Shown here: positions 3,145 through 13,631 of the stretch, one piece after another | Position numbering within the stretch: the stretch's first letter is position 1 | How the letters are laid out: each line of letters opens with the position of its first letter | From: Acidobacteriota bacterium | Lineage (GTDB): Bacteria > Acidobacteriota > Terriglobia > UBA7540 | Direction of reading: 5' to 3' | Assembly: GCA_902812365.1 (NCBI GenBank) | Contig: CADDZC010000023.1 | Span: forward strand, 1-49,028 | Length of the DNA: 49,028 nt | Translations under genes and position numbers: made by a program | Notes under the pieces: generated by a model | Database searches by the model: none | Seen by the model: the letters and a program-made list of their open reading frames with translations, nothing else | Told to the model about the DNA's origin: nothing

Positions 3145-4034
3145 CTTTTACTTGATCGCGTAATCGGGACGAACTGATTCCGATTTAAACCCTTTTAGCC
3201 GGGCGTCGCAAGTAGAAGCTGGACGAACCCGATCTCAGGGGCCGGCCCCGTCGGAATCTGACCGCAGAGATTTCCCGATGAAGTCCTTGCCACGGCGCGG
3301 CTGTACGGGATTGGAGGGCAATCCCAAACAGGCATCTAGGGAAATCGCGTGAGCCCCACCCGTTGTCTCAGACCACGACAAGGCTGTCGCCTGAATCAAC
3401 GCCCGACAGAGGAATGGGCTCGGGTACGGTGGCCAAGTTCTGCGCCGGATTGCCAGAATTGTAAGATTGGCTTGCCAAGTGCGGACGCGTCGGTGTTCCC
3501 TCAATATCTGCCCAATCAGTGTCGCCATCAGCGCGGCAGGCACTACCACGCGCATGACTTTTGAGGGGCTCCGAGTCTCCGCCGACTCGCTCACGAAAAC
3601 CGCCGTGCAAGTTCTTCGCCAACTCAAGCGCGGCCGCGGAGAGTGTTTTCGCCGGGTTCGACTCGGACTGTTCGACGCTGTCGGACGGCTCCGGAATGAA
3701 TCTGCATCTGTTCCCGGGAGCCCGTGAGCCTTATGTGTTCAACTGGCTGAACAAAAAGGGTTTCTAGAGTGGAAACGGCTATTGACCGCTTCGCAGCTAG
3801 GCTAACATGGTGCCTTGGCCGATCAATCGTCAGGTCGTCTGCGCCTGCCACGGGGTCGCAAATGAAACGGGCGCTGCGTGGCGCCGGTTGCCCGAGCGGT
3901 CCAACTTCACTGTGGCGGCTCAACCCGGCAGAGCGGGTTGAAGCGATGGCGTTCATCCAGCGCTTCTCGACGGGTCCGCAGTGGCTGCCGATTCAGAGTC
4001 TTGCCATCGAATGACTCACAGCTTGGGGGCATGC
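3145..4034. other. intergenic stretch with one hairpin
   Basis: About 890 bases between divergently transcribed genes. No open frame here has a recognisable product. A perfect 8-bp hairpin, TCAACCCG (3920-3927) and CGGGTTGA (3934-3941) with loop GCAGAG, lies about 95 bases upstream of the acylase gene. It has no T-run and could be a leader structure or an operator. Confidence 0.45.
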
Positions 4035-6251
4035 ATGCGAAGAGCTCTGGTCACGGTCCTCGTTCTGGGCGCCGCCGTCCGAGTGCTGGCGGCCCACGAC
4101 CCCTTAGCTGACCAAGTCACGATCTATCGCGACGAGTACGGAGTGCCCCACATTGTGGGTGAAACCGAGGAAGCCACATTCTTCGGTTACGGCTACGCAC
4201 AGGCCCAGGACCACCTCGAGAAGATGTTCCTTGAATACCGCGATGCACAGGGAAGAAGATCGGAAATACTGGGCTTGGGAGCGTTGGGCGATGGCTACCT
4301 TCGGTTCATCCCTTACGAATACCGCTGGGACGGGGACTATTTGCAGCGCCTGCTGCGGACCAAGCAGGCGGTCGTCGAGAATCGTGACAAGATCGGCCCG
4401 CAGGTGTACCGAATATTGTCGAGCTTCGCCCGCGGCGTCAACGCTTACATCGCCGACCATCGGTCGCAGATCCCCTCTTGGATTGACGGAATTGAGGCCG
4501 AAGACGTCGAGGCCTTGGAACGCAGCCACTACTTCCGTTTTTACAGCGTTCACGAAGCTTTGAGCAAACTCACGAACCTGCCAACTTCCTTTCCCAACCT
4601 TGGATCCAACCAGTTTGCGATTGCACCGGGAAAGTCGGCTGACGGCCATGTTATCCATGTGGAGGAGACGCACATGCCCTGGGCTAATCGCTTCCAGAAC
4701 TACGAGGCCCATCTCCTCACCCCCGGCAAGCTGGATGCAGCCGGCATCAGTTGGTTCGGCAGCCCTTTCTTTCTGGACGGCCTCAATGAGCACATAACCT
4801 GGTCCGCAACTTGGAACATGCCAAACATCTCAGACGTTTATGAGGAAAAACTGAATCCCGCCCATCCGCTCCAATATCTGTACGCCGGCACGTGGCGCAC
4901 CATCAGAGTACGGTTTGAGACGTTTCGGATAAAAAATGGGAACGGCTTCCGGGTGATGACATTGCCCTGCTACTACACCCACCACGGCCCTATTGTGAAG
5001 TTTGACAAAGAACGGCATCGAGCTTACGCCGTGAAGTTGCCGAATTTTGATGGTGTCAATTATTCCACGCCACTGTACCGGCTTATGAAAGCGCGGGATC
5101 TAACCGAGTTCAAAGCGGTCTTAGCCTTGCACCTCATACCGCGCTGGAACCTCCTTTATACAGATACAAGAAACCTTTACTGGGTTCACAACGCCACAGT
5201 GGCCGAACGCACACCCGGGTACGACTGGCGCAAACCGGTGCCCGGCTGGTTGAGGGATACGGAGTGGGGACCTTACCTCCCGTTGAGCAAAATGCCGCAA
5301 TTGCTCAATCCTGCCTCCGGCTTCATCCAGAACTGCAACAACCCTCCATGGTTGTCGACCTCCAACTCCGGCCTCCGGCCTCTTGATCCGGCGCCTTATT
5401 ACCTTTTGCCGGTGCCAAAACCGGAAATCAGCCAGGAGGACCTGAATGCGCGCGGCGAACGTCTTCTCAAGATTCTTGGCCAGGACAAGAAGTTTACGTT
5501 GGACGAAATGAAGGCTCTCGCCTACGATACTTACGTCGTTCCGGCCGACGTCATTATCCCCTTACTGGAGAAGAGTGAACAGGGGAGTCCCGAGGGAGCT
5601 GATCCGGCCGTTCGGCGCGCGATACGGACTCTCAACACTTGGAACCGCCGGTCGGCCGCCGATTCTATAGCTCAGACCTATCTCTATTTTTGGGCCCAAG
5701 CGTACCGCGCCATGTTCTCTGATGCCCAACTCGAACGCTTTCTGGCTATTTCTCGCTATCGGGTTGACCTCAATTCGACCCAGGAGCAGAGAATGGCGAT
5801 CGCCGCTCTGAAAGAGGCGCTGGGCAGAATTCAACAGCTGTTCGGCAAGACCGAGGTTACGTGGGGCGAAGTCAATGTGGTCGAGCGCGGTGGAACCTGG
5901 CCAATGGACGGCACGGGCGTGTTCGACGTGCTGCACCCGGATGACGGTGTCCAAGGCAAAGACGGCCGAATCCGCTGCAATGACGGATGGGGGCATATGC
6001 TGGTGGTTGATGAGGGACCACCCAAAAGAGAGTGGAGCCTTCTGCCTTACGGCGAGTCGGAAGACCCGGCCTCGCCGCACTTCAACGACATGGCAAAGTT
6101 ACACAGCCAGAGAAAAATGAAACGGTTGTGGCTCACGCCGGAGGAGATCCTTGCCCATACAGAATCAGTTTGGGGTATTAAGGATCGCCTGAAGAGACTA
6201 TATCCCTCGCTCGGCGCAGCCCCTCCGCGGCCAGGTAACCGTCTCAACTAG
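4035..6251 (+). CDS. penicillin acylase family (S45, Ntn-hydrolase) periplasmic amidase
   Basis: 738 residues from the ATG at 4035. I chose this start because it directly opens a signal peptide (MRRALVTVLVLG...) and has GGGGG just upstream; two earlier in-frame ATGs (3981, 4011) would bury the signal. Family members are exported as one chain that cuts itself into alpha and beta subunits; the new N-terminal Ser of the beta subunit is the nucleophile attacking amide bonds of penicillins, N-acyl homoserine lactones or acyl-amino acids. Here the cleavage motif is G190-S191-N192, a usual alpha length. The early motif DEYGVPHI and the AQAQD stretch are also family-typical. The customary NDPHL after the nucleophile reads VEETHMPW, so the substrate is probably non-standard. 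It stands alone, converging on the protoglobin gene. Confidence 0.88.
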   Translation: MRRALVTVLVLGAAVRVLAAHDPLADQVTIYRDEYGVPHIVGETEEATFFGYGYAQAQDHLEKMFLEYRDAQGRRSEILGLGALGDGYLRFIPYEYRWDGDYLQRLLRTKQAVVENRDKIGPQVYRILSSFARGVNAYIADHRSQIPSWIDGIEAEDVEALERSHYFRFYSVHEALSKLTNLPTSFPNLGSNQFAIAPGKSADGHVIHVEETHMPWANRFQNYEAHLLTPGKLDAAGISWFGSPFFLDGLNEHITWSATWNMPNISDVYEEKLNPAHPLQYLYAGTWRTIRVRFETFRIKNGNGFRVMTLPCYYTHHGPIVKFDKERHRAYAVKLPNFDGVNYSTPLYRLMKARDLTEFKAVLALHLIPRWNLLYTDTRNLYWVHNATVAERTPGYDWRKPVPGWLRDTEWGPYLPLSKMPQLLNPASGFIQNCNNPPWLSTSNSGLRPLDPAPYYLLPVPKPEISQEDLNARGERLLKILGQDKKFTLDEMKALAYDTYVVPADVIIPLLEKSEQGSPEGADPAVRRAIRTLNTWNRRSAADSIAQTYLYFWAQAYRAMFSDAQLERFLAISRYRVDLNSTQEQRMAIAALKEALGRIQQLFGKTEVTWGEVNVVERGGTWPMDGTGVFDVLHPDDGVQGKDGRIRCNDGWGHMLVVDEGPPKREWSLLPYGESEDPASPHFNDMAKLHSQRKMKRLWLTPEEILAHTESVWGIKDRLKRLYPSLGAAPPRPGNRLN

Positions 6252-6375: not shown

Positions 6376-6981
6376 CTAAAAGTCTCCTTCCTTCACGTAG
6401 GGTTGACTCCACAGCGCTACTTGAAGGATGACCGATTTGATCCATGCCTGATGCATCTTTTCAACCTCTTCCGGCTTGTGCCCCTTCTTGGCGAGAAAAG
6501 GTTTCAGGGTCGCCGTGATCGGGTAGATGAGGGCGATGAGGTAGCGGTAGTCAATATTCGGAACCGAGTCGACGTCGTCGGTCCGGTTCTTGGCGGTGCG
6601 GTGATGCCGTCGGCCGATCTCATGCTGGTAGTCGAGCCACTTCTGATCATACTCGGCGCGGGCTGTATCGCGCACCCATTGTCCAAACCGCTTCCGCACT
6701 CGCTCCAGATACTCGGGAATGGGTTTGCCGTCTTGGCGGCTGCTGAAGTACCGAAGCAAATGGCGATGAGACGCGACAAAGCCGTACCAGACGTCGAGCA
6801 CCTGCTCGATCTGGTCCTCAAGCACTGCTGCCGACATGCGCAGATAGCGCGCGTCCTCCTCGGTGAAGAGTATGGTCTGCTTCAGCCGGTCAAGCTCTTC
6901 GAGACTGATGGGCGAACGCGGTAGATCCGGGGCGCCGAAAGTGTACCCCGGAATCGGTGAGAGTGCTGACGATGAGCTCAT
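6376..6981 (-). CDS. protoglobin-domain heme protein
   Basis: 201 residues. The start at 6981 is set by AAGGAGG upstream and by a 4-base ATGA overlap with the MarR gene stop; an upstream in-frame ATG (7239) lies inside the MarR gene and is not credible. Residues about 25-190 match the protoglobin fold. The segment WLDYQHEIGRRHHR puts a likely proximal heme ligand at His120, and VWYGF (about 64-68) fits the distal Trp-Tyr of archaeal protoglobin. Protoglobins bind O2, CO and NO. No output domain is attached, so this is a single-domain globin. Coupling to a cysteine-bearing MarR regulator suggests that its expression answers a gas or redox signal, or that it modifies the signal seen by the regulator; that part is inference. 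Confidence 0.9.
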   Translation of the reverse strand: MSSSSALSPIPGYTFGAPDLPRSPISLEELDRLKQTILFTEEDARYLRMSAAVLEDQIEQVLDVWYGFVASHRHLLRYFSSRQDGKPIPEYLERVRKRFGQWVRDTARAEYDQKWLDYQHEIGRRHHRTAKNRTDDVDSVPNIDYRYLIALIYPITATLKPFLAKKGHKPEEVEKMHQAWIKSVILQVALWSQPYVKEGDF

Positions 6982-7733
6982 ATGGTTTCTTCTCCTTCCT
7001 TGGAAATAGCCGGCCCGAAGGGCCGGGATTCCTCTGCTTCCGGGGGCGTTCCCGTCTGCGAACACCCCCGCGCGAAGCGCTCCCAGGCGAGCGCTGCTTC
7101 TGTGGCTGGGGCAGGCTCCTGATCCTGGCAGTCGAGCCGCAACTCGGGGTCTCCAAACGGGGCGTCCACAAATGCGCAGTGATGGGGGCGCTGAGGGTCG
7201 GCATGTGCATAGGGCTTGAAAAAGCGACAGGTTACGCACATCCGCGAGACGGAAATCTCACCGCGCTCCTGGAGGACGCGAATCATCTTTATAATGGCCC
7301 GCAGGAGGACGGCTTGCTCGCCGGGCTCGAGCGCCCCCACCGCCCGCAGCAGAAAGTCCGGCCACAGGGCCGCCCTCTCGGCCATCCGCCAACCCTCTCG
7401 AGTAAGCTCCAGCCGGATTCGCCGGGAGTCCGATCCGTCGCGAATCTTGCGAATCAGCCCCTTCGTCTCCAGGGCAGCCACCGCATCGCTTGCGGTGGCT
7501 GGCGTGACCGCCAGTTGCTCGGCAATGCCCGAGAGGGTTGCACCGCGTACATCGCTTGCGGGCATGCTCTGAAGCAGCGCAAGGATCTGGCCTTGAGTGG
7601 GGGTCAGACACTCCGCGGCAGCTCCGCGCCAGGCATGGCTCCGAAGCGCCAGGCCTAACTTGTTTAATCCCGCCACGATGCGTCGGGCGAGCGAGAGGGT
7701 AGCGGATGGAGCCGAGCTGTCAGAGACCATCAT
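6978..7733 (-). CDS. MarR-family regulator with C-terminal cysteine cluster
   Basis: 251 residues. A winged helix occupies about residues 42-125 (TPTQGQILALL, then recognition helix TPATASDAVAALETKGLI and wing DGSDSRRIRL). After the dimerisation helices comes C166-x2-C169-x16-C186-x15-C202, with His184/His185 beside the third cysteine. This resembles an Fe-S or zinc site and is absent from ordinary MarR proteins. The remaining 45 residues are Pro/Glu-rich and probably disordered. ATG codons at 7733 and 7730 are both possible starts. The gene is first in a two-gene operon with protoglobin. A 13-bp palindrome at the start codon, with a second copy upstream of the -35, suggests autoregulation. 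Confidence 0.88.
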   Translation of the reverse strand: MMVSDSSAPSATLSLARRIVAGLNKLGLALRSHAWRGAAAECLTPTQGQILALLQSMPASDVRGATLSGIAEQLAVTPATASDAVAALETKGLIRKIRDGSDSRRIRLELTREGWRMAERAALWPDFLLRAVGALEPGEQAVLLRAIIKMIRVLQERGEISVSRMCVTCRFFKPYAHADPQRPHHCAFVDAPFGDPELRLDCQDQEPAPATEAALAWERFARGCSQTGTPPEAEESRPFGPAISKEGEETI

Positions 7734-7745
7734 TAGGACTCCTAA
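7733..7745. promoter_or_regulatory. palindromic operator at the MarR start codon
   Basis: TTAGGACTCCTAA is a perfect 13-bp inverted repeat (6-bp arms, one central base). It touches the last base of the -10 hexamer on one side and the first base of the ATG on the other. A repressor bound here would block initiation. On the reverse strand its AGGAG also looks like a ribosome binding site, but the predicted transcription start lies downstream of it. Confidence 0.65.
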
Positions 7746-7773
7746 CGATATCTCCAGGACCGCTTCTTGTCAA
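7745..7773 (-). promoter_or_regulatory. sigma70-type promoter of the MarR-protoglobin operon
   Basis: A perfect -35 TTGACA (7768-7773) and a -10 TATCGT (7745-7750) are spaced 17 bases apart on the reverse strand. The predicted start point, about 7738, leaves a leader of only about five bases, so the mRNA may be effectively leaderless. Confidence 0.7.
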
Positions 7774-7780
7774 CACCCTT

Positions 7781-7793
7781 TTAGGACCCCTGC
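7781..7793. promoter_or_regulatory. second, imperfect copy of the MarR operator
   Basis: TTAGGACCCCTGC matches the 13-bp palindrome at 10 of 13 positions and keeps one half site (TTAGGA) intact. Its centre is 48 bp from the first copy. It lies just upstream of the -35 hexamer, so the two sites flank the promoter. The rest of 7794-8016 shows nothing further. Confidence 0.5.
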
Positions 7794-8016: not shown

Positions 8017-9966
8017 TCAAACGGCTGGCGGGTTTTTTGACGCGGAGTTCACCTTCCAGTAGACCACGTAACGCTCGCCCTGCAATTTGTAAAGTGGAAT
8101 CAACGAGGTCGCCCGGGGTTGCCCTACAGTGCGGAAAGTCAGCGTTTTGCCCGCCACCGGCTCGACCCAGCTGGCAAGCCCGTCACGGTTTGCCTGGATC
8201 ACGGGCACGTCCGCCGGCTTGCCGCCCGGCGAGGTGTTGTAGCCGAGGTAGGTATTCGAGTCGTTTAGCCCCTCACTGCCCAGGCGGCCGGCGAGCACCA
8301 GGGGCCCGTACATCGCCGCCTGCTGCGTCTCATCGCCCGGCAACGACTCAACCCGCAGGCTCATCGGCAGTCGCACCTCAACGCGGTCCCCCGTCTTCCA
8401 CGTCCGCTCGAGCACCAGGAAGCTGCTTGGGCCCGAGAACACGGGCAGCAGCTCGCCGTTCAGCTTCACCGTTCCTCCCCGCACCGCCCAGTAAGGAACG
8501 CGGATATGAAAGCTCAGCGTCACCGGCCGCTCCGCATGCACCGTCAGCGCCGCGCCTTCTTCTTCCGGGAAATGTGTCTCCTGGCGAAGCCGGAGGCCCT
8601 TTTCCGGCCATTCGAGCTCCGAGGCGATGAACAGGTTGACGTAGACTCCGCGGTCGTCGTGGAAATAGATCGTATCGTTAAACTTAGCGAACTCCTCCGC
8701 GCCTGTCCCTGTGCAGCACCAGAAAGAATCGTAGGCAGAGTTGTAATATTTCCACCACCCGCGACCGACGGGCAAAAAGTAGCATTTCATCCCCCGCGCA
8801 TCTTGCGTGCCGAGCCGGCTGTTGAAGAGCGTCCGCTCGTAATAATCCATCGCCGCCGGATCGGCCGTCCAGCCAAAGAGGTGCCGCGTCAGCTTCAGCA
8901 TGTTGTAGCCGCAGCAGCATTCTTCGTCGTCCTGGCCGGTTTCCTGGCTCAGGTTGCCGGGGTCTCCCCGCCAGTGCTCCCGGTAACTCGTGCCGCCGGT
9001 CGCGAACACCCGCCGCGTCGTCACCTCGTGCCAGAAATAGCCGGCGATGTGGCGGTAGCGCTCGTCGCCGGTCACTTCATACTGGCGCGCCGCGCCGATG
9101 ATCTTGGGGATGTTTGTGTTCGCGTGCAGCCCTTTCAATTCGTCGCGAAACGCGGCCAGGGGATCGAAAACCGCCCGGTGGTCAAAGCGCTGCGCCGTGA
9201 GAAGGTATTGCCGCCGGCCGGTCAACGCATAAAGGTTGCACAACACCTCGAGCATTCCGCCCTGCTCGACTTCGAGCACCCGCTGCATGTGCTCGTCGCT
9301 CAGCGGATCGGTCCAGCGGGCCACCCAGCTTGCCATCTTTTCCGCTGTCTCGAGCGCCTGCTCATTGCCGCAATAGGTGTACATGTCCAGGTGCCCGGCC
9401 ATGATCTTGTGGAGGGTGTAAAACGGGGCCCAGACGGGCCGACCCTCCCGCAGCCGGTCGAAAAACTCTTCCGGAAAGGCGCTGAGATATCCGTTGCCGT
9501 GCGCCTGCTGGCACTGGGCCAGCCTGCTGACCAGGTCGCCGGCTTTTTTCCTGAGCTCCTCGTCTCCGGTGCTGGCATACATCAGCGCCGCGGCCGAGAG
9601 GTAGTGGCCGCCGCTGAAGTGACCCCGCACCTCACAGTCCGGCTTTTCCCAGCCTCCGAGCGGCTCGGCGGAGGAGGGCAGGCCGGCCGTAACGCGAAAC
9701 ATGTGAGCCAGGCGGTCATTCGGCAACTGCCGCAGGTAACCAAGGTTGGCCTCCTGCTGGTCTTTAAAAATACCGTCGATAAGCTTCACCTGCTGGTTGG
9801 GAAAGGGAAGCACCCGCCAGGAAATCACTTCCCGAGGCGCCACCGAGCCGCCCGGCTCCGCATTCGCCCTTGAATTCTCCGGCGAGCCCGCACTCCATCG
9901 CCCGGGCAAGATCGCGGCCCCCGCGGCCACTGCTGCAAGCTCTATGAACTGCCTTCGGCTGTGCAT
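8017..9966 (-). CDS. GH127-family (DUF1680) beta-L-arabinofuranosidase-like enzyme, Tat-exported
   Basis: 649 residues from the ATG at 9966, which opens a Tat signal (MHSRRQFIELAAVAAGAA). The earlier ATG at 10074 would add 36 basic, unstructured residues before it. The body is an (alpha/alpha)6 barrel followed by beta-sandwiches. In the founding enzyme of GH127 a Glu and three Cys hold zinc and one Cys is the nucleophile; here they can be placed at E348/E349, C350-C352 (EECCCGYN) and C417-C418 (FWCCTGTG). The family removes beta-L-arabinofuranose from plant glycans and glycoproteins; GH146 is a close alternative. The substrate is inferred. No strong ribosome binding site is visible at this start. 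No polysaccharide-utilisation genes are adjacent. Confidence 0.9.
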   Translation of the reverse strand: MHSRRQFIELAAVAAGAAILPGRWSAGSPENSRANAEPGGSVAPREVISWRVLPFPNQQVKLIDGIFKDQQEANLGYLRQLPNDRLAHMFRVTAGLPSSAEPLGGWEKPDCEVRGHFSGGHYLSAAALMYASTGDEELRKKAGDLVSRLAQCQQAHGNGYLSAFPEEFFDRLREGRPVWAPFYTLHKIMAGHLDMYTYCGNEQALETAEKMASWVARWTDPLSDEHMQRVLEVEQGGMLEVLCNLYALTGRRQYLLTAQRFDHRAVFDPLAAFRDELKGLHANTNIPKIIGAARQYEVTGDERYRHIAGYFWHEVTTRRVFATGGTSYREHWRGDPGNLSQETGQDDEECCCGYNMLKLTRHLFGWTADPAAMDYYERTLFNSRLGTQDARGMKCYFLPVGRGWWKYYNSAYDSFWCCTGTGAEEFAKFNDTIYFHDDRGVYVNLFIASELEWPEKGLRLRQETHFPEEEGAALTVHAERPVTLSFHIRVPYWAVRGGTVKLNGELLPVFSGPSSFLVLERTWKTGDRVEVRLPMSLRVESLPGDETQQAAMYGPLVLAGRLGSEGLNDSNTYLGYNTSPGGKPADVPVIQANRDGLASWVEPVAGKTLTFRTVGQPRATSLIPLYKLQGERYVVYWKVNSASKNPPAV

Positions 9967-10226
9967 CCGGGTATGCCGCTTGCGTTGCGCTCGGTGCCAG
10001 ATTCCGCCCGCGCTCGCAGCCTCTCCGCTTCGCCGCGGTTCGTGCTTCCGTTCCTGTCCACCTGAACTCCGCATACCGTTGACACGGAAATATAACCTAT
10101 ATCACCTCTGTGGATGGCGAGTGAGGTCGAGCTGCTGGCCTCGTTCACCACGGGCGATGATACATCCCGCCCGGCGTCAAGGCCAGCAGTATGTGGGCCA
10201 GCCTTTCCCTGACGCAGGAGTGCGGC

Positions 10227-10962: not shown

Positions 10963-11814
10963 TCAGGCGGGGTTCGAGGACTCATGGATCGCCCCGTTCA
11001 CCCCGTTCGGGAAAAAGCCGCCACTCATCACGTTGGCCTGAAACCCGTAGACGATGAACAGCACCTGGCCTGGGGTGCGAATGGCGGTTTGGGCATCCTG
11101 AAGGTCCATGGAGAAGAATTGGGATCCTGAGGGTGGCGGCAGGATATCCACGCCGTCAAGCTGGGTCGTGGCCACCCCGTTCAGGGCAACTTGCAGTCGA
11201 ATATTGCTCGAGTGTTCAGCTTCTGCGGCCAGAATCCGCGCCGCCGCTCCGAGCACGGCGGTGTTTTGAATCAGCGGCGCCGCGCCGCCATAGGCCGTGA
11301 CGCCGACGTCCTCGAAGGCGCGGGCCAGCGCCAGAAACTGCTTGAGGTTGCCAAAGCCGAAGCCGAGAGCGTTGAGGTTAATCGCGGGTTTGGCGACGGG
11401 TTGTACGCCCAGGGAACTCAACGCGTTCCGGATATACAAAACATGCCGCTGCTCATCATAGGCGATCTGCTCGGCGATGGTTTTCGTGCGGTCACCGCCC
11501 ACGGCGATATGAAGATTGACTCGGCTGCCACCGGTGGTTGGTCCTGCGTTGCCGCTCCCATTAGTGGGAATTCCAATCTCCGACAGCGTTTTTCCGGTGG
11601 TTGCCACCGTGTAAAACTCAGCCTCGAGGTATTCCAGGTTTAGGGCGAAATTCAGAATATCGGTGTCTGTAATGGATTGCGCCATGGCGATGTTGGTGTT
11701 TGCCAGCCAGCCAGCGCCGGCGAGGCCGAGCCCGGCGGCACCGGCGAGTTGCATGAAGTGGCGGCGCGTTGGCGAATGATCCAAAAGGTTTCCAGGTTTC
11801 CCGTTCTTTGCCAT
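10963..11814 (-). CDS. Tat-exported ferritin-like domain protein
   Basis: 283 residues, starting at the ATG (11814) with AAGGAGG upstream. A Tat motif (TRRHFMQLAGAAGLGLAG) precedes a long four-helix bundle. Helix motifs LEYLEAEFY, AYDEQRHVLYIR and AAEAEHSSNIR supply the Glu and ExxH residues expected of a ferritin-like di-iron site. The family includes bacterial and plant desiccation-related proteins. It may handle iron or oxidative stress in the periplasm, but no activity has been shown for this subgroup that I can name. It lies head-to-head with an ECF sigma/anti-sigma pair, a reasonable candidate for its regulator. Confidence 0.87.
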   Translation of the reverse strand: MAKNGKPGNLLDHSPTRRHFMQLAGAAGLGLAGAGWLANTNIAMAQSITDTDILNFALNLEYLEAEFYTVATTGKTLSEIGIPTNGSGNAGPTTGGSRVNLHIAVGGDRTKTIAEQIAYDEQRHVLYIRNALSSLGVQPVAKPAINLNALGFGFGNLKQFLALARAFEDVGVTAYGGAAPLIQNTAVLGAAARILAAEAEHSSNIRLQVALNGVATTQLDGVDILPPPSGSQFFSMDLQDAQTAIRTPGQVLFIVYGFQANVMSGGFFPNGVNGAIHESSNPA

Positions 11815-12255
11815 CTTGATCCTCCTTAAAGTCAAAGTGCGAGCGCTAATCTGAATGGCGGCGGCCGAAGCGCAGGCGGCTATTTCCTGCGCCTGGAAGC
11901 CGACCGTTTCGTTTCATGGCCAGCGCCGTGGCCGGCTCGGGCTTGAACAGATCAGATCCGAGCCTTCCGCTCCGCCAGCCGATTGATTGCCACCCTGAGT
12001 ACGTAAAGCGAAGGGCAAGTGGATTGAGGTACTTTAAGGAGGTTTTTCCGAGCGTACTCAACTGTCTTGCCAGTACAGGAAACCTTTGCCATAGGCTCTT
12101 CAGGGGTAAAGGCGGGATTGGCTTGAACGGCCTGGCCACGTCTCGACTCCTCGTGAGGAATCGAGCCGGCCAACGGCATGCGCACACTGGCAGCACAATG
12201 ACGGTGACAAATTCTGTAAAACCTGTCAAAATCCAATCAGCCTTCGGAAACGTAC
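11815..12255. other. divergent intergenic region between ferritin-like and ECF sigma genes
   Basis: About 440 bases that must hold promoters for both directions. I could not settle on a sigma70 promoter. A 7-bp inverted repeat GAGTACG (11997-12003) / CGTACTC (12053-12059) encloses AAGGAGG with no convincing frame behind it. Nothing else stands out. Confidence 0.4.
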
Positions 12256-12831
12256 TTGTTGAAGAGAGCTGAATTGCCCAATGCTCCCCATCACACTGAC
12301 CGTCACCCGGCGGATTTCGAATTGATTCGCCGTGTTGCCAACGGTGACGAAGCGGCCTTGACGGCGCTCTACGACCGTTATGCGGGTGTGGTCTATTCTG
12401 TGGCGCATCGCGTCCTGAAGGATGAGGGGGCGGCCGAAGAGGTGCTGCAGGATGTCTTTTATCAGTTGTGGTGCAACGCTTCGCGCTACGATGCGGCCCG
12501 GGGCACCATGGCGGGCTGGCTCTTGGTCAGCGCGCGCAACCGTGCGATTGACTTGCTGCGCCGACGGAAGCCAGCGGATACCAACAGCATGGAAGAACCG
12601 GTTCCGCTGGCTTTTAACCTGGAATCCAGTGTGGCCAGGACGCAATTGATCTCCAGGGTGAAATCCGCGCTCGGGATTTTGACCCCCGCCCAGCGCCAGG
12701 TGCTGGAGCTGACATACTTTGCAGGAATGACGCACGGCGAGATTGCTGAAAAAACCGGAGAGCCCTTGGGTACGGTAAAGACGCGACTGCGCGCCGCACT
12801 CCACACGCTCCGGCAGGTACTGGCCCCGTGA
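12256..12831 (+). CDS. ECF sigma factor (SigK-like)
   Basis: 191 residues from the TTG at 12256; TTG codons at 12259 and 12274 are equally possible and no upstream site decides between them. Region 2 is clear: LIRRVANGDEAALTALYDRY, YSVAHRVL, EEVLQDVFYQLW. The 2.4-like segment is GWLLVSARNRAIDLLRRR. Region 4 has LTPAQRQVLELTYFAG followed by the helix-turn-helix THGEIAEKTGEPLGTVKTRLR. The next gene overlaps by four bases (GTGA) and encodes its likely anti-sigma factor. Its targets probably include its own promoter and perhaps the divergent ferritin-like and PEP-CTERM genes, which is inference from position. Confidence 0.93.
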   Translation: MLKRAELPNAPHHTDRHPADFELIRRVANGDEAALTALYDRYAGVVYSVAHRVLKDEGAAEEVLQDVFYQLWCNASRYDAARGTMAGWLLVSARNRAIDLLRRRKPADTNSMEEPVPLAFNLESSVARTQLISRVKSALGILTPAQRQVLELTYFAGMTHGEIAEKTGEPLGTVKTRLRAALHTLRQVLAP

Positions 12832-13631
12832 ACGAGCATCCACAACCTGAAGAAGTCTTTGACGAGTACGCGCTCGGCAGCCTGGAGGGCGAAGACAAGC
12901 AAGCCTTTGAATCTCACCTCCGCGACTGCAAGACCTGCGCGCGGAGACTCGAGGAGGCGCGCGCCCGTCTGGCGCTGCTTTCATTGGCTGCCCCGCCGAT
13001 CACACCGCCGTTGCGGGTTCGGGAAGGGCTGCTGGCCCAAGTGCGCGCGCAGTCGTCGGGAAAAGTTCCGAAGCCGGCAATAAGCCGCCAGCCCCGGCGC
13101 ACACTTTGGCTGGTTCCGCTGCTGGCGGCCGCAGCAGGCGCCCTGGCCATCACCGCCGTCGTTCTCATTCGCTTGAACCATCGGTTGAGCCGGCAGCTTG
13201 CGGCTCTCGAGCAGAAGCAGGCGGCCATGCTGGCCGCCCAGCAGGAGCAACAGTTGCAGGCGGACAAGGCCCGCCGCGTGCTGAACGTTCTCACCTCGCC
13301 AGAGACCGTGAAGGTGTCTTTGCTGCCCGCCGACGCCCACCCGGCGCCCCAGGGGAAGGCATTCTACAACTCCGACAAAGGTCTGGTGTTTTATGCCGCC
13401 AACCTTCCCCCGCCTCCGTCCGGTTATACTTATCAACTTTGGCTTGTCCCGCTGCGCGGCGTACCCATCAGTGCCGGCGTCTTTCGCACCGATCGTGAAG
13501 GCGACGGCAAAGTCGTGCTTCCCCCTCTGCCGCGCGGAGTGCCGGCCAAGGCGTTTGCCGTCACCATCGAGCCTGCTGGCGGAAGACCGCAACCGACCGG
13601 AAAAAAAGTCTTGATTGGGGCTGTGTCGTAA
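12828..13631 (+). CDS. anti-sigma factor: zinc-finger ZAS domain, one membrane helix, RskA-type C-terminal domain
   Basis: 267 residues starting at GTG, which overlaps the sigma gene stop and implies translational coupling. Residues 1-60 form an anti-sigma domain with the H-x3-C-x2-C zinc motif (HLRDCKTC). A single membrane helix (LWLVPLLAAAAGALAITAVVLI) lies near residues 94-115. It is followed by a Gln/Ala-rich coiled coil (AALEQKQAAMLAAQQEQQ). The rest (about 150-267) is a beta-rich RskA/anti-sigma-K domain that would sit in the periplasm. The layout fits a membrane anti-sigma that releases its partner on envelope or redox stress. Confidence 0.9.
   Translation: MNEHPQPEEVFDEYALGSLEGEDKQAFESHLRDCKTCARRLEEARARLALLSLAAPPITPPLRVREGLLAQVRAQSSGKVPKPAISRQPRRTLWLVPLLAAAAGALAITAVVLIRLNHRLSRQLAALEQKQAAMLAAQQEQQLQADKARRVLNVLTSPETVKVSLLPADAHPAPQGKAFYNSDKGLVFYAANLPPPPSGYTYQLWLVPLRGVPISAGVFRTDREGDGKVVLPPLPRGVPAKAFAVTIEPAGGRPQPTGKKVLIGAVS

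Follow-up and report, generated by a model that had tools for sequence, protein, structure and literature searches.

A widespread MarR-type regulator with a C-terminal four-cysteine domain, paired with protoglobin and a predicted autoregulatory operator in an Acidobacteriota bacterium

Repressors of the MarR family, and cysteine-bearing repressors that sense nitric oxide (NO), are both already known. In Corynebacterium, ArnR is a dimeric winged helix-turn-helix protein with C-terminal cysteines and a [4Fe-4S] cluster, which represses hmp until it is released by NO (PMC12343034). NsrR is an NO-responsive repressor of hmp, ygbA, ytfE and hcp, and the ygbA gene of E. coli is an NO-induced member of its regulon (PMC5320621). 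CioR, of the GbsR type, is a MarR-type protein that represses its own haem-protein operon, a source of NO resistance, with cyanide the sole inducer among the agents tested (PMC11837568). Within the same family, MepR, OhrR, AdcR/ZitR and SlyA combine the MarR fold with a short palindromic operator over the promoter, and with autoregulation. The physiological role of single-domain protoglobins is still debated.

The locus described here lies in the window, by which we mean the whole 49,028-nucleotide stretch of DNA that was analysed, from an Acidobacteriota bacterium. It comprises two overlapping genes and their upstream region:

6978-7733, minus strand: MarR-type regulator with a C-terminal four-cysteine domain (MarR-C4), 251 residues.
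7419-7607, minus strand: winged-helix DNA-binding domain of the regulator, residues 43-105 (Pfam PF01047).
7119-7244, minus strand: C4 domain of the regulator, residues 164-205, with C166, C169, C186 and C202, and the near-invariant H184-H185.
6376-6981, minus strand: single-domain protoglobin, 201 residues, with His126 as the proximal haem ligand.
6978-6981, minus strand: ATGA stop/start overlap of marR and the protoglobin gene, read from the sequence.
7745-7773, minus strand: sigma-70 promoter, with the -35 element TTGACA at 7768-7773, a 17-bp spacer, and the -10 element TATCGT at 7745-7750.
7733-7745, minus strand: predicted operator TTAGGAGTCCTAA, a perfect 13-bp palindrome, assigned from its sequence and family-wide conservation.
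7781-7793, minus strand: weak second copy GCAGGGGTCCTAA, with 3 mismatches, probably not functional.

The ATGA overlap is as an earlier note on this DNA, made from the sequence alone, had described it. The pair is flanked by a penicillin amidase (3981-6251, plus strand) and a GH127 glycosidase (8017-10074, minus strand), both unrelated to it on the evidence of their Pfam matches. Elsewhere in the window, an ECF sigma factor and an RskA-type anti-sigma factor that opens with a zf-HC2-like segment (12256-13631) share a four-base overlap, with a gene for a ferritin-like protein (10963-11835) divergent from them.

The Pfam matches of the regulator are MarR-type (PF01047, 36.5 bits against a cut-off of 24.6; PF12802, 34.6 bits against 27), and the protein has no match to the Rrf2 domain PF02082. 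Its AlphaFold model, based on 67 sequences, has a mean pLDDT of 87, reaching 94-97 in the C4 domain, and residues 1-155 adopt the standard MarR fold, of the dimer type, in which N- and C-terminal helices surround the wHTH. A structure search with the whole model, the result of which is dominated by residues 9-159, aligned it with MepR (4l9j) at a Z score of 15.3 and 2.2 Å over 136 residues (VIA), and no sequence match in the PDB reaches beyond residue 156, leaving the C4 tail uncovered; the tail itself may have a fold that is already known. This tail carries the cysteine motif that the earlier note had placed after the winged helix, with the spacing C166-x2-C169-x16-C186-x15-C202.

By analogy of architecture, ArnR appears to be the nearest characterised design, as it too follows a MarR/ArsR-like winged helix with a C-terminal cysteine domain, and represses a globin gene. 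However, the conserved cysteines of ArnR are three (179, 193 and 223 in C. glutamicum), with no fourth, whereas MarR-C4 has four at other spacings; furthermore, ArnR is nearly confined to Actinobacteria, where it controls narKGHJI and the flavohaemoglobin, whereas MarR-C4 is found in many phyla and is here joined to protoglobin. The targets of NsrR overlap with the neighbourhood of MarR-C4 (YgbA and a globin), but NsrR is a member of the Rrf2 family, with three clustered cysteines and an 11-1-11 palindrome. Similarly, OhrR employs single-cysteine chemistry rather than a four-cysteine tail, while AdcR/ZitR bind zinc inside the MarR dimer rather than through a C-terminal C4 domain. Proteins of the GbsR/CioR type are associated with cytochrome bd, in the case of CioR, or with osmoprotectant transport, whereas the window regulator has both a protoglobin partner and the C4 tail. 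For CioR, one cysteine is discussed (C52) and no C4 domain is reported (PMC11837568), and the tail appears in neither the CioR nor the SlyA papers. A Thermus "NO regulator" was considered as a possible MarR-C4 protein and rejected, the regulator described there being of the NsrR type.

Homologues of the regulator were detected in 17 of the 297 genomes searched from the window's phylum, including the window's own, and a plasmid search returned 53 records, ranging from Nostoc to Thermus. A scan of the genomes of 84,980 species with a 12-sequence alignment identified 488 stretches encoding a relative, the best 80 of which were fetched; automatic gene calls being unreliable in high-GC loci, homology clusters were used instead. 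The earlier note had made its reading of the tail depend on the conservation of the cysteines, and all four are invariant across the 104 aligned homologues, with H184 present in 101 and H185 in 93. The two patterns used in the genome scan covered Cys 1-2 and Cys 3, and its loci are therefore partly selected for these cysteines; the bias does not extend to Cys 4, nor to the loci of the phylum and plasmid searches. The plasmid-borne units include examples from Nostoc, Sinorhizobium, Deinococcus and Shinella (L020, L022, L023 and L025), with Rrf2-type regulators close by in L023 and L025. Judged by these sequence comparisons, the window locus is one case of a widespread regulatory family, the partner gene of which varies.

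The promoter of the window locus, TTGACA-17-TATCGT (10/12), is the only sigma-70-like match in 1.8 kb, where 0.2 would be expected, and it reads into marR; its -35 element is the TTGACA recognised in the earlier note. The same note had drawn attention to a perfect palindrome over the start codon, and this was confirmed: TTAGGAGTCCTAA runs from the final base of the -10 element to the A of the first marR ATG. The GGAG within it resembles a Shine-Dalgarno sequence, and lies at the Shine-Dalgarno distance from the marR start. The perfect palindrome occurs once in the 3.5 Mb genome to which the window belongs, and hence control would be local and autogenous. A wider regulon in this genome was considered and rejected, as there is no further perfect site, and the next best match (C6:34942) falls inside a phosphoglycerate mutase gene. 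That a palindrome single in its genome should recur at homologous positions across phyla is far beyond chance.

Two operator copies had been proposed to flank the promoter, of which one is supported. The string reported as a 10/13 upstream copy does exist at 7781-7793, but as an operator it is near chance, with 12 three-mismatch matches to the palindrome in the window against 7.1 expected, and it is not conserved: of the 21 loci that combine protoglobin with a primary site, the window alone shows, within 75 bp, a further site with no more than two core mismatches. It is not treated here as an operator, although it may have a local role.

The perfect palindrome of the window fits an operator, TTAGGAnTCCTAA, that is a trait of the whole family and recurs over operon starts in about a dozen bacterial phyla. 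Its core, TAGGAnTCCTA, lies with at most one mismatch upstream of 61 of the 104 MarR-C4 genes, compared with approximately 0.2 in dinucleotide shuffles, and near the operon start in 78 of the 104 loci when units led by a partner gene are included. No operator was found near the start in the other 26, some of which probably reflect misplaced starts or contig truncation. When loci are aligned on the operator, TTGACA-like -35 elements commonly lie at -27 to -31 from it, with their peak at -28 to -30, and TATAAT-like -10 elements peak at -5 to -8, with the -10 box commonly ending at or beside the operator; hence the operator covers about +1. This layout relative to the promoter is the one predicted for a repressor site, and the fact that these operons keep the palindrome around +1 gives strong, if indirect, support for binding by MarR-C4. 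A short palindromic operator at the protein's own promoter, a trait of the MarR family, is thus also found here, as a predicted site.

The operator goes with whichever gene leads the unit, and in most protoglobin loci this is marR itself. Elsewhere it stands at a leading protoglobin (Calidithermus L035 and cyanobacterium L046), globin (L028, L088 and L090), cytochrome P460 (L006-L008 and Thermus thermophilus L019), HPP gene (L047 and L073) or thioredoxin-like gene (L013-L015). In G204, regulator and protoglobin are divergent and approximately 1.4 kb apart, with a one-mismatch site near the protoglobin start and none at marR. Several cyanobacterial units (L028, L047, L055, L083, L086-L088 and L090) have tandem full operators 15-17 bp apart, which suggests two dimers side by side. 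Two individual loci also deserve record: on pTT27 of T. thermophilus HB27 (L019:7518-8534), MarR-C4 (TT_RS10585) lies directly 3' of a P460-family gene with a one-mismatch operator at its start, and G154 has a second perfect site, upstream of a short helix-hairpin-helix protein.

We propose the following sequence of events. Firstly, a MarR-C4 dimer would bind TTAGGAGTCCTAA, where transcription from its own sigma-70 promoter begins. Secondly, the bound dimer would block RNA polymerase, preventing transcription of marR and the protoglobin gene. Thirdly, the four C-terminal cysteines would hold a metal centre, for which an Fe-S cluster sensitive to NO or redox is likelier than structural zinc. 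Fourthly, an attack by NO, or by reactive nitrogen or oxygen species related to it, would destroy or modify this centre, and the repressor would leave the DNA. Finally, derepression would allow production of protoglobin, to bind, oxidise or detoxify NO. We regard this full chain, from autorepression to protoglobin derepressed against NO, with slightly more confidence than doubt, while considering its autorepressor part very probable. Comparative evidence supports the gene pair, the invariant cysteines, the conserved +1 operator and, as a prediction, local autoregulation; we infer repression over activation, occupancy by Fe-S, NO as the signal and the globin as a remover of NO.

The nature of the signal is indicated by the genes that accompany the regulator. 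Counting protoglobin and HPP, an NO-linked partner is present in 46 of the 104 loci. Besides protoglobin, these partners are single-domain globins (seven), the cytochrome P460 family (six), YgbA_NO (L011 and L017), an HAO-like multihaem cytochrome (L011), DUF438-hemerythrin-PAS proteins (L010 and L012), and HPP membrane proteins (five), which we take to be a nitrite-transport family. The P460-family neighbour in T. thermophilus is presumably the cytochrome c'-beta already described. Because of this set of partners, NO or nitrosative stress fits best, and the family probably senses NO or a related stress. The signal that the earlier note suggested regulator and globin might share (O2, NO or redox) is plausible, with the neighbours favouring NO or nitrosative/redox stress over O2. 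Further partners are AhpC/TSA redoxins (26), thioredoxin_3 proteins (16), GATase (12), AhpD-like CMD proteins (6), cupredoxin (5) and an unnamed secreted family, c2 (27). Members of c2 are about 250 residues long, are found beside MarR-C4 in 27 of the 104 loci, often under the same operator, and carry the motifs HPDFDD and WHxHWVVL (for example L087:3513-4253, L059:5675-6403 and L025:4675-5391, with about 24 other loci); the family has no Pfam match and no fold match in the PDB.

In 45 of the 104 loci the partners are exclusively redox-type (AhpC/TSA, thioredoxin_3 or AhpD-like) or uncharacterised, and in 13 none was recognised. The signal could therefore be general thiol or peroxide stress, which is the main alternative to NO. 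These 45 loci also suit a different account of the C4 domain, in which the autorepressor and operator are the same, but structural zinc occupies the cysteines, and induction comes about at the MarR ligand pocket or by direct oxidation of the cysteine thiols. The oxidant might then be peroxide, hypochlorite, quinone or reactive sulfur, and protoglobin a general redox or haem sink. Four cysteines with a CxxC spacing also suit structural zinc, and the tail is predicted to be an ordered small fold, as zinc-ribbon-like domains often are. Moreover, there are zinc-binding MarR proteins, AdcR/ZitR (PDB titles), and OhrR senses oxidants through cysteine oxidation (reviewed in PMC12506092). Against this account stand the 46 loci with NO-linked partners; moreover, four cysteines and an HHC motif that stay invariant in so many phyla are more than one or two reactive thiols would call for. 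We judge it unlikely, although a serious competitor.

Returning to the NO-responsive autorepressor, the proposed effector at the window locus is a protoglobin by both its Pfam match (136.9 bits, above the cut-off) and its full-length match to Methanosarcina acetivorans protoglobin (2veb, E 2.7e-84). It resembles MaPgb of M. acetivorans and ApPgb in its haem-pocket Trp, Tyr and proximal His, and differs from them in being bacterial and beside a MarR-C4 gene; these residues (W65, Y66 and H126) are invariant in 26 of 26 MarR-C4-linked protoglobins. The earlier note was right that the partner is a haem globin, but the proximal His120 that it named follows M. acetivorans numbering. The ligand here is His126, and at the protein's own position 120, where the window protoglobin also has a histidine, only 11 of the 26 relatives have one.

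The co-occurrence with protoglobin on which the earlier note had also staked its reading does recur: among the best 80 of the 488 genome loci, protoglobin adjoins the regulator, or is one gene away, in 25, from nine phyla (Acidobacteriota, Actinomycetota, Bacillota, Binatota, Chloroflexota, Cyanobacteriota, Deinococcota, Planctomycetota and Pseudomonadota). The regulators linked to protoglobin do not form one clade, being scattered over a tree of low support with 17 changes, and therefore either partners have been gained and lost, or the tree is poorly resolved. Distances between regulators correlate with those between protoglobins (Mantel r 0.52, p 0.0002), mostly through close relatives; with near-identical pairs removed the correlation is weak (r 0.24, p 0.07), hence partners may be swapped. 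In one locus (L042:5010-6320), MarR-C4 and protoglobin form a single open frame of 436 residues, whereas a close relative (L076) has two genes; this may be a natural fusion, a lost stop or a sequence error.

Such a frame, together with the translational coupling through ATGA and the recurrent adjacency, is what might be expected if protoglobin were itself the sensor, passing its gas-bound state (O2, CO or NO) to MarR, with the C4 tail as the docking site. However, L042 retains a ribosome-binding site before the protoglobin ATG and may have a frame error or lost stop, and the C4 domain and operator are also kept at loci without protoglobin, which makes this partner an unlikely reason for the tail's evolution; we find the explanation improbable. 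That an ordinary MarR gene merely stands beside an unrelated globin has next to no probability, as although protoglobin often occurs without MarR-C4, including most of the protoglobin genes sampled in the window's phylum, the recurrence of the pair across nine phyla refutes it, and protoglobin-like genes at the window's similarity are present in only 8 of 297 genomes of that phylum, making chance adjacency vanishingly rare.

The open-access papers that were searched contained neither the operator sequence nor anything relevant on a MarR protein tied to protoglobin, and one comparative paper on NO regulons leaves MarR unmentioned. On this literature, the MarR-C4 subfamily, with its operator and targets, is apparently undescribed, and it is this combination that appears to be new. 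A larger claim can be entertained, although we lean somewhat against it: that MarR-C4 is a new pan-bacterial family of Fe-S NO sensors with the operator TTAGGAnTCCTAA, a multi-phylum counterpart of NsrR and the dedicated regulator of protoglobin, whose role in bacteria would thereby be defined as NO defence.

A conserved repressor whose operator is defined by sequence offers a direct handle on the role of protoglobin, as finding the signal that releases the repressor would reveal what the globin answers to. The rule of TTAGGAnTCCTAA at +1 allows targets to be predicted across about a dozen phyla, and the locus of T. thermophilus HB27 provides a culturable and genetically tractable system for the family. 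The family also ties uncharacterised genes, including the secreted c2 family, the DUF438-hemerythrin proteins and HPP, to the same signal.
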